Below, in pieces: positions 29,445 through 59,897 of a stretch of DNA of 64,000 nt. Every line of letters begins with the position of its first letter. The stretch's first letter is position 1. The DNA is from Vannielia litorea (lineage in GTDB: Bacteria > Pseudomonadota > Alphaproteobacteria > Rhodobacterales > Rhodobacteraceae): positions 1,054,001 to 1,118,000 of the forward strand of contig NZ_FSRL01000001.1 in NCBI RefSeq assembly GCF_900142295.1, given 5' to 3'. Below the pieces are notes generated by a model. That model was not told where the DNA came from, made no database searches, and saw only the letters and a list, made by a program, of their open reading frames with translations. The position numbers and the translations under genes were made by a program.

Positions 29445-29524
29445 AGATCCTCGGGTCGGGCCCGAGGATGACCTGTGCGTTGGGGGCTTGGGGGTAGATC
29501 CTCGGGTCGGGGCCCGAGGATGAC
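29445..29524. repeat. Two direct copies of the ATCCTCGGG palindrome
   Basis: Hairpin units at 29447-29469 and 29498-29521 share AGATCCTCGGGTCGGG and end in CCCGAGGATGACCTG. They are in the same orientation, 51-52 bp apart. They belong to the dispersed palindrome family also found near 35.3, 38.4, 59.1 and 59.5 kb. Confidence 0.85.
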
Positions 29525-35278: not shown

Positions 35279-35285
35279 CGCGGTC

Positions 35286-35347
35286 GTCCTCGGGCCTGCT
35301 CCGAGGACCTCTTGGCGGAAGATCCTCGGGGCGGGCCCGAGGATGAT
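35286..35347. repeat. Dispersed palindromic element, diverged copy
   Basis: Two hairpins: GTCCTCGG...CCGAGGAC (35286-35308) and ATCCTCGGG...CCCGAGGAT (35322-35344), ending GATGATG. Located between the convergent DoxX and tkt genes, where it could also act as a transcription stop. Confidence 0.75.
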
Positions 35348-38395: not shown

Positions 38396-38460
38396 GTCAT
38401 CCCCGGGCTCGACCCGAGGATCTCCCGTCAAAAGGACCTGGGGTCAAGCCCGGGGATGAC
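38396..38460. repeat. Dispersed palindromic element, CCCCGGG variant
   Basis: An element of the form GTCATCCCCGGGC...CCGAGGATCTC followed by ...GGTCAAGCCCGGGGATGAC. Its outer ends GTCATCC and GGATGAC are inverted, so the whole 65-bp element is roughly palindromic. Confidence 0.8.
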
Positions 38461-57299: not shown

Positions 57300-57357
57300 T
57301 GCACCCCGTCTCCCCCCGCTGCGCCGTCATCCACACCCTGTCTGCAGGAGCCGCCTG

Positions 57358-57358: not shown

Positions 57359-59072
<1,714 letters not shown>

Positions 59073-59098
59073 TGACACGGTTTGTTAACCAAAGCGCC

Positions 59099-59164
59099 GT
59101 CATCCTCGGGCTTGACCCGAGGATCTCCTGTCAACGAGATCCTCGGGTCAGGCCCGAGGATGAC
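59099..59164. repeat. Dispersed palindromic element, complete copy
   Basis: Two hairpins, ATCCTCGGG...CCCGAGGAT at 59102-59124 and 59139-59161, in opposite orientation. The outer ends GTCATCC / GGATGAC are inverted, so the 66-bp element is palindromic overall. It lies 27 bp after glpQ and 17 bp before the GIY-YIG start. Confidence 0.9.
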
Positions 59165-59180
59165 AAGAGGCTACGGCGGG

Positions 59181-59498
59181 ATGGACAAGCAGATGGCGGT
59201 CTACATGATGACCAACAAGCCGCGCGGGACGCTCTACATCGGCGTGACCAGCGGGTTGGTCGGGCGGGTCTGGCAGCATCGGACCCACGCGTTTCCTGGC
59301 TTCACCGATCTGTACAATCTCGACAAGCTGGTCTGGTACGAGACGCACGAGGAGCCGACTGTTGCGATACAGCGGGAGAAATCGCTGAAACGCTGGTACC
59401 GGCGGTGGAAGATCGACCTGATCGAGAAGGCCAATCCCGGCTGGCGGGATCTCTGGTACGAGATTTGCCCCGGGGCAGAGGCAGAGGCGGACGTCTGA
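59181..59498 (+). CDS. GIY-YIG nuclease family protein
   Basis: A 105-residue protein consisting of one GIY-YIG domain: VYMM stands for GIY (residues 7-10), YIG is exact at 19-21, the catalytic-type Arg is 29 (GLVGRVWQHR) and Glu is 67 (QREKSLKRW). This is the short UPF0213/YhbQ-like type with no added DNA-binding domain. It is flanked on both sides, within 17 and 6 bp, by copies of the dispersed palindrome, and it interrupts the glp operon. The ATG at 59181 is used; the frame upstream reads through the repeat. Confidence 0.85.
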   Translation: MDKQMAVYMMTNKPRGTLYIGVTSGLVGRVWQHRTHAFPGFTDLYNLDKLVWYETHEEPTVAIQREKSLKRWYRRWKIDLIEKANPGWRDLWYEICPGAEAEADV

Positions 59499-59503
59499 AG
59501 GCC

Positions 59504-59587
59504 GTCATCCTCGGGCCTGACCCGAGGATCTCTCATTTTCCGTCGCACCCAGCCGCAAGAGGTCCTCGGGTCAAGCCCGAGGATGAC
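59504..59587. repeat. Dispersed palindromic element, complete copy with longer spacer
   Basis: Hairpins at 59507-59529 and 59562-59584, inverted relative to each other, with a ~32-nt spacer. Outer ends GTCATCC and GGATGAC match those of the copy at 59.1 kb. It begins 6 bp after the GIY-YIG stop codon. Confidence 0.9.
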
Positions 59588-59624: not shown

Positions 59625-59897
59625 ATGGACTGGATGGCATGGACATGGCCCACCGCGATCTTCTTTCTCGTGATCGCCAGCCTGCTGATCACCTTCACCG
59701 TGCTCGCAATCAAGTTCCCCGAGACGCCCCGCAAGGGCGTGCTCCAGATCGAGACCACGAGGGGCGACCGCCTCTTCATCACCCTTCTCGGCTCGGCCTT
59801 CATCAACCTGGCCTGGCTCGGATTGACCGGATGGCCCCAACCCTGGGCGCTGGTCCTCTGCCTGATCTATGCCGCAGCGGTGTTTCGCTGGGTGTAG
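59625..59897 (+). CDS. DUF2160 family membrane protein of the glycerol transport operon
   Basis: A 90-residue protein with two to three membrane helices. Proteins of this family sit between the GlpQ permease and GlpV binding-protein genes in rhizobia and roseobacters, so a role in the glycerol importer is likely but untested here. GGAGCC precedes the ATG. It is separated from glpQ by the GIY-YIG/repeat insertion. Confidence 0.85.
   Translation: MDWMAWTWPTAIFFLVIASLLITFTVLAIKFPETPRKGVLQIETTRGDRLFITLLGSAFINLAWLGLTGWPQPWALVLCLIYAAAVFRWV

Follow-up and report, generated by a model that had tools for sequence, protein, structure and literature searches.

Why should a small nuclease gene stand between two copies of a genomic palindrome, in the middle of a glp operon? 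The locus lies in the window, our name for the whole stretch of Vannielia litorea DNA that was analysed (64,000 nucleotides), and the three genes concerned are on the forward strand. A glpQ-type ABC permease gene (58227..59072; PF00528, E 1.2e-9), whose orthologues adjoin glpU in relatives, is followed by a 66-bp double palindrome, or REP dimer (59099..59164; arms 59099-59127 and 59136-59164), with its GTC tag facing outward. Then come the GIY-YIG nuclease gene itself (59181..59498; 105 aa; PF01541, E 5.6e-13), a second REP dimer of 84 bp with a GAC tag facing outward (59504..59587; arms 59504-59532 and 59559-59587), and a glpU-type gene for a DUF2160 membrane protein (59625..59897; PF09928, E 1.9e-36).

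The first-pass annotation of this DNA had described a 105-residue GIY-YIG gene bracketed by the genome's own palindromes between glpQ and the DUF2160 gene, and we confirmed that layout. The palindromes are indeed close to the nuclease gene, only the gaps are 16 bp on the left and 5 bp on the right, not 17 and 6 as it had given. It had also called glpQ and the DUF2160 gene usual neighbours, which agrees with a glpQ-glpU spacing of 14–46 bp in 22 of the 37 junctions that we examined. The open frame of the nuclease extends upstream through the left palindrome (59082-59180), and an automatically called start may therefore lie too far upstream and give the protein a false N-terminus; in our alignment, the homologues begin near the ATG at 59181.

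The nuclease and its border palindromes

GIY-YIG is the sole Pfam domain in the nuclease, with a score of 49.4 bits against the Pfam cut-off of 22.6. Across an alignment of 26 sequences, Y19, R29 and N85 are invariant and E66 is nearly invariant, and we take these to be the conserved Tyr, Arg, Glu and Asn of the GIY-YIG core, presumably with a catalytic role. The AlphaFold2 model has a mean pLDDT of 89.8. When we searched the PDB with this model in Foldseek, the best matches were UPF0213 (1zg2, E 3.4e-3) and Slx1, with UvrC domains lower and nothing at E 0.001 or better; the best PDB profile match has E 9.8e-6. The nuclease shares its fold with the GIY-YIG domains of UPF0213, UvrC and Slx1, whereas its sequence similarity to them is weak, and a search of NCBIfam gave no model matching it. 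Judging from a dN/dS of 0.08–0.13 for the three nuclease-bearing species of the genus, the gene is under purifying selection. Among named proteins its nearest match is one of Vannielia litorea, and the surrounding genome is of the Rhodobacteraceae kind.

With class-B relatives (defined below) as the profile query, we found at least 8000 homologues. A small GIY-YIG protein of Neisseria meningitidis, Ssn, reportedly also has many homologues and a repeated genomic target, NTS, and a 2025 study of it is said to stress the cutting of single-stranded DNA at this repeated sequence and the control of natural transformation in Neisseria. The window's nuclease resembles the Ssn nucleases as so described; no hit named Neisseria was among the 120 matches listed of the at least 8000. 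Judging its target from position, we hold it most likely that the enzyme is of the Ssn type and that its borders carry its own targets.

Both border elements are head-to-head pairs of 29-bp arms, and every arm is itself a hairpin with a 9-bp stem (8 in one), ATCCTCGGG, a 5-base loop and a GTC tag on one side. In the four arms the tags read CGTC, TGTC or GGTC and the tail reads CTC. Folded as single-stranded DNA, the left element reaches -36 kcal/mol (z -11.3) and the right one -31.8 (z -7.9), and 0 of 200 shuffles were as good.

These features are those of the CGTC-tagged REPs that Di Nocera et al. (2013, PMC3733652) described from five phyla, mostly alphaproteobacterial. There the repeats are defined by a CGTC tag (TGTC or CCTC in many), a stem of 8–9 bp mostly starting AT, a loop of 4–5 and head-to-head dimers, and the window's arms agree with all four of these. 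The usual tail there is CCA, while the window's four arms have CTC; since most tails in that description, not all, fit CCA, the CTC tail does not exclude membership. The paper also identifies the Neisseriae members with dRS3 repeats, reports no dedicated or associated transposase, and has neither the word GIY nor the word UvrC. Our own literature search found no paper linking GIY-YIG genes with REPs.

The palindrome belongs to a family of its own genome, as the first-pass annotation had held. With up to 3 mismatches allowed we counted 54 + 60 arm matches genome-wide, against 0 + 0 for a reversed control pattern. Tightening the limit to 2 mismatches leaves 57 distinct arms; they make up 42 elements, and 15 of these are dimers. 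Within the window the family has a further double palindrome (38396..38460), a degenerate one (35283..35347) and a single arm (29446..29472). An apparent palindrome remnant starting CCGTCATCC lies at the glpT-glpP junction (57300-57357), where two genomes of the genus, G004 and G005, carry a palindrome dimer. Rfam matches at the palindromes were far under gathering scores and look like generic hairpins. The one other GIY-YIG domain of the genome is in a 667-aa frame, which we read as UvrC, and there was no such arm within its 3.2-kb locus.

Nuclease clades and palindrome classes

For a comparison of flanks around homologues, we took the best 80 of at least 548 related loci, with one genome per species, and scored the 76 that had at least 150 bp of flank on each side (4 were dropped). 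A score of at least 18 counted as resemblance, and 662 other genes of the same loci, from crude ORF calls, served as controls. Left and right flanks were alike at 49 of the 76 homologue loci, spread over several phyla, against 5 of the 662 control genes, four of which fall in one locus; 27 of the 76 failed the test. Hairpins on both sides were found at 48 of the 76 homologue loci versus 41 of the 662 controls. The first-pass annotation had asked whether homologues might be without repeat association, and many of them do have repeats.

REPs are mostly intergenic, according to PMC3733652, and abundant REPs might simply have landed next to a small gene. We put the chance of this at practically nil. 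The control genes rule out a chance neighbourhood, and so do random 318-bp segments of the main contig: only 17 of 2,000,000 had elements within 25 bp on both sides, and by the listed gaps the nuclease site alone can yield those 17. There are also genomes in which the only copies, or nearly the only ones, are at the gene.

The palindromes fall into classes. Class A, mostly ATCCTCGGG with a 5-base loop, is found in Rhodobacteraceae and Rhizobiaceae. Class B, which is ATTCCCGC-like and has a 4-base loop, occurs in beta-, gamma- and deltaproteobacteria, Planctomycetota, Cyanobacteriota, Campylobacterota, Cloacimonadota and others, and class D, GTCCCGGG or GCCCCGG, goes with a second Rhodobacteraceae nuclease group. 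Sphingomonads, Caulobacteraceae and Bradyrhizobium have yet other palindromes. The class rules are simple text patterns, and variants including L055, L056, L146 and L156 were assigned to A by stem length.

Palindrome class follows nuclease clade, across several phyla. On a tree of 110 nuclease proteins we counted 26 class changes with the unclassed rows taken as one group, against a mean of 62.6 after shuffling (0 of 200 shuffles were as low), on a tree that has few columns and many open forks and in which near-copies and related loci inflate this statistic and those for orientation. The 95 classed rows alone give 12 changes, and 15 of the 110 rows have no classed palindrome. Different nuclease groups of one host family carry different classes (A in the window's group, D in 20 of 21 rows of another, and B in L053 and L057), so host taxonomy alone is insufficient to account for the classes.

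Loci L058-L077 of the second Rhodobacteraceae group, with GTCCCGGG-type palindromes, include a cluster of 18 loci (with L055) that has homologous neighbours on both sides. Read from sequence, these shared neighbours include an N-carbamoylase-like gene in L060 and L071 and a dihydropyrimidinase-like gene in L071.

The framing of relatives by clade-matched repeats points to an enzyme-and-target unit that is able to move as a block. We consider it likely that the block in the window is such a unit, a compact one in which a small GIY-YIG nuclease is combined with the sites that it targets, the CGTC-type palindromes at both borders.

The closest parallel in form is the RAYT/REPIN system of GTAG REPs (PMC3116915), which likewise has a nuclease gene beside REPs, a REP class of its own for each gene, and dispersed dimers; RAYTs are proposed there to multiply or move the GTAG REPs. 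In the GIY-YIG loci too the nuclease gene is framed by REPs of its own class, but the enzyme differs. RAYTs are HUH tyrosine transposases, whereas the window's protein has GIY-YIG as its only Pfam domain, with no HUH transposase and no known joining step.

Unit ends, movement and repeat abundance

Tagged hairpins stand on both sides of the gene at 45 of 111 loci. Of the 18 loci with exactly one such hairpin per side, 15 have both tags facing outward (binomial p 3e-7, taking loci as independent). Border palindromes with outward tags are arranged as terminal inverted repeats are, and the two ends of a REP dimer are these same ends with no gene between them.

One rhizobial genome, G333, has two copies of the unit, and these match over 375 columns at 85%, from 2 bp beyond the left tag to the right tag. 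Outside the unit the copies are unlike, save for short palindrome-to-palindrome matches; under looser scoring the match reaches 20 bp beyond the left tag. The second copy (L256:2213-2585, in the genome of L097) is frameshifted. With the copies alike only between the outer palindrome ends, the flank matches at 49 of 76 loci against 5 of 662, the tags outward in 15 of 18 and the class following the clade, the module of repeat, nuclease and repeat that the first-pass annotation had suggested proves to be a recurring unit.

We then compared ends in 174 rhizobial pairs that do not share both neighbourhoods, noting that the pairs overlap and hence are not independent. Similarity went more than 30 bp past the nearest outward tag at 1 of 137 left ends and 0 of 126 right ends. 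It ended within 3 bp of a tag at 17 left and 18 right ends and 4–30 bp outside at 5 and 6, and in most pairs it ended inside the tags (114 of 137 left, 102 of 126 right).

The rhizobial nucleases are found at several sites: 7 pairs at least 85% identical have no common gene (at 60% identity or more) within 8 kb. With flanks of 1.5 kb, 13 of 20 nuclease pairs at least 85% identical seem to have no shared neighbours. This comparison overstates movement, because, with 8-kb flanks, a common gene appears in 18 of the 99 rhizobial pairs whose identity is 75% or more and because L100 and L103 share one neighbourhood. A helicase-like gene, read from sequence, is within about 1.6 kb of the nuclease in the genomes of L097, L106, L100, L103 and L113, while in the ten other genomes searched the helicase-like gene is present and the nuclease lies away from it.

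If the block is an enzyme with its own targets, it might work as follows. By analogy with the Ssn nucleases, the nuclease would recognise its own border palindrome as a single-stranded hairpin and cut it. If such border cuts were made while DNA is being taken up, replicated or recombined, the block could be released or protected, and host repair would then help it to move or to stay in place as a unit, by a route of transfer that we infer. The dispersed REP dimers would be targets of the unit, and perhaps short derivatives of it.

A more active role can be imagined, in which the nuclease mobilises the CGTC-tagged REPs as RAYTs would the GTAG ones, nicking the palindrome ends, with REP dimers as short non-autonomous derivatives. 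The outward tags, the same two ends in REP dimers and the two unit copies in G333 all favour such a mobiliser, and so does the description of CGTC REPs without a known transposase in PMC3733652. Repeat abundance in the genus favours it as well, since genomes with the nuclease are rich in arms (97, 69 and 135 matches) and three of the four without it are not (7, 2 and 0). The fourth, G004, tells against it with 80 matches (43 + 37) and no nuclease found, as do G045, G224 and G250, which have a nuclease yet almost no dispersed copies. In addition, we know of no strand joining by a lone GIY-YIG domain. Overall we find this role rather doubtful.

We looked at abundance across 296 genomes of the family. 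Class-A arms are abundant in 2 of them, and both have the nuclease at glp. All 5 genomes with a class-A nuclease have at least two class-A hits, as do 5 of the 291 others (p 1e-8); this test above all is partly circular, since genome counts include the border palindromes. All class-A matches in G045 and G224, and five of six in G250, are at the nuclease locus. For class D the set comprised 25 genomes whose nuclease match falls in neither group A nor group B: 20 classed D and five others (G009, G132, G210, G220 and, by its second match, G224). Of these 25, 24 had at least one class-D hit, against 34 of 271 others; at least four were found in 17 against 15 (p 2e-13) and at least ten in 11 against 11, and here too the low thresholds are partly circular.

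In 15 genomes with at least four class-D hits no nuclease was detected, profile search included, which is a further point against the mobiliser. Repeat-rich genomes might have been hiding a nuclease, but profile searching did not bear this out: it found nothing in 20 genomes where none had turned up before (19 with class-A or class-D matches, and G001 without a class-A match), and among 40 others there was a single weak match, within a 632-aa frame (E 6.5e-4). G130 has 95 + 104 matches to GTCCCGGG palindromes and no nuclease, even by profile. In G298 the nuclease is flanked by palindromes other than its genome's 61-hit class-A family. The repeat can outlive the nuclease gene, or spread without it. 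That the nuclease spreads the palindrome is unproven, with evidence on both sides.

The palindromes could also act as hairpins, in RNA or in DNA, by which the nuclease gene is insulated or regulated within the operon, and not be targets of the enzyme at all. Both elements do fold strongly, they lie a few bases from the ends of the gene, and the gene appears to be under purifying selection, but the match of class to clade, the genome-wide association and the outward tags would all be left unexplained, and we judge this very unlikely.

Returning to the enzyme-and-target unit, a broader claim is possible, which we offer tentatively: CGTC-tagged REPs may have a dedicated enzyme, a GIY-YIG nuclease that would travel with palindromes at both ends, in a unit about 370 bp long, and seed REP dimers as short derivatives, an independent counterpart of RAYT/REPIN with an unrelated nuclease. 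REPs are common in bacterial genomes, and the CGTC kind was described in PMC3733652 without a dedicated transposase. A clade-matched, REP-bounded nuclease makes the origin and spread of these REPs directly testable, and it would give the RAYTs, the proposed movers of GTAG REPs, a counterpart in an unrelated enzyme.

History of the glpQ-glpU junction

The nuclease is present in 3 of 7 genomes of the genus. The first-pass annotation had allowed that it might be conserved at this site in all relatives, and this is not the case, as we did not find it in the other 4 of 7 (one of the four is only 87% complete). Beyond the genus, a relative stands at the same junction in seven more genomes, for a total of 10 genomes in up to 8 genera. 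Among the 296 family genomes, 163 have glpU and at least four have the nuclease at glpQ-glpU (G000, G045, G250 and G298), with seven weaker or second matches unplaced.

The first-pass annotation had proposed a search for empty glpQ-DUF2160 sites, and there are such sites. We examined 37 junctions, 12 from relatives and 25 from the best family matches: 22 are short and empty (14–46 bp), 5 have the nuclease, and 10 have 84–349 bp of something else. A recent jump into the glp operon is not supported. The occupied junction in other genera rules out a recent insertion at glpQ-glpU, and the low dN/dS (0.08–0.13) likewise speaks against one. The nuclease is an old, patchily kept resident of this locus.

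An unrooted tree of six genus genomes, from about 12 kb of the region, reads (G006,(G000,(G003,G002)),(G005,G004)). Occupied and empty species stand side by side in it, a pattern that hints at two losses or exchanges. The grouping {L049, L079, L083}, seen with the flanking genes, is rejected by the nuclease data (AU p 0.001), while {L080, L083}, the nuclease grouping, is not rejected by the flank data (p 0.109), both groups having been named after the trees were seen. Nuclease and flanking-gene distances are weakly correlated (Spearman 0.27, p 0.07). Exchange of the nuclease between genera is likely.

Such a pattern might also be left by a free-standing homing endonuclease, whose gene would spread by cutting the empty glpQ-glpU allele, with the palindromes as hangers-on. 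The junction holds a nuclease in 10 genomes, from up to 8 genera, while 22 of 37 are short and empty, and the nuclease tree rejects the flank grouping, as homing would have it. Border palindromes are, however, also found in other classes and at other sites, the rhizobial relatives sit at several sites, and the nuclease grouping stands unrejected by the flank genes, so we regard homing as quite unlikely. On the reading that we prefer, the enzyme-and-target unit would have entered glpQ-glpU long ago, been passed on or exchanged between genera, and probably been lost in some lineages.

Going by the sequences at these junctions, the space between glpQ and glpU may be a general insertion place in relatives. 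Among L033, L035, L037, L039 and L043, some junctions have apparent short unrelated ORFs, and L035 and L037 have a different long inverted repeat.
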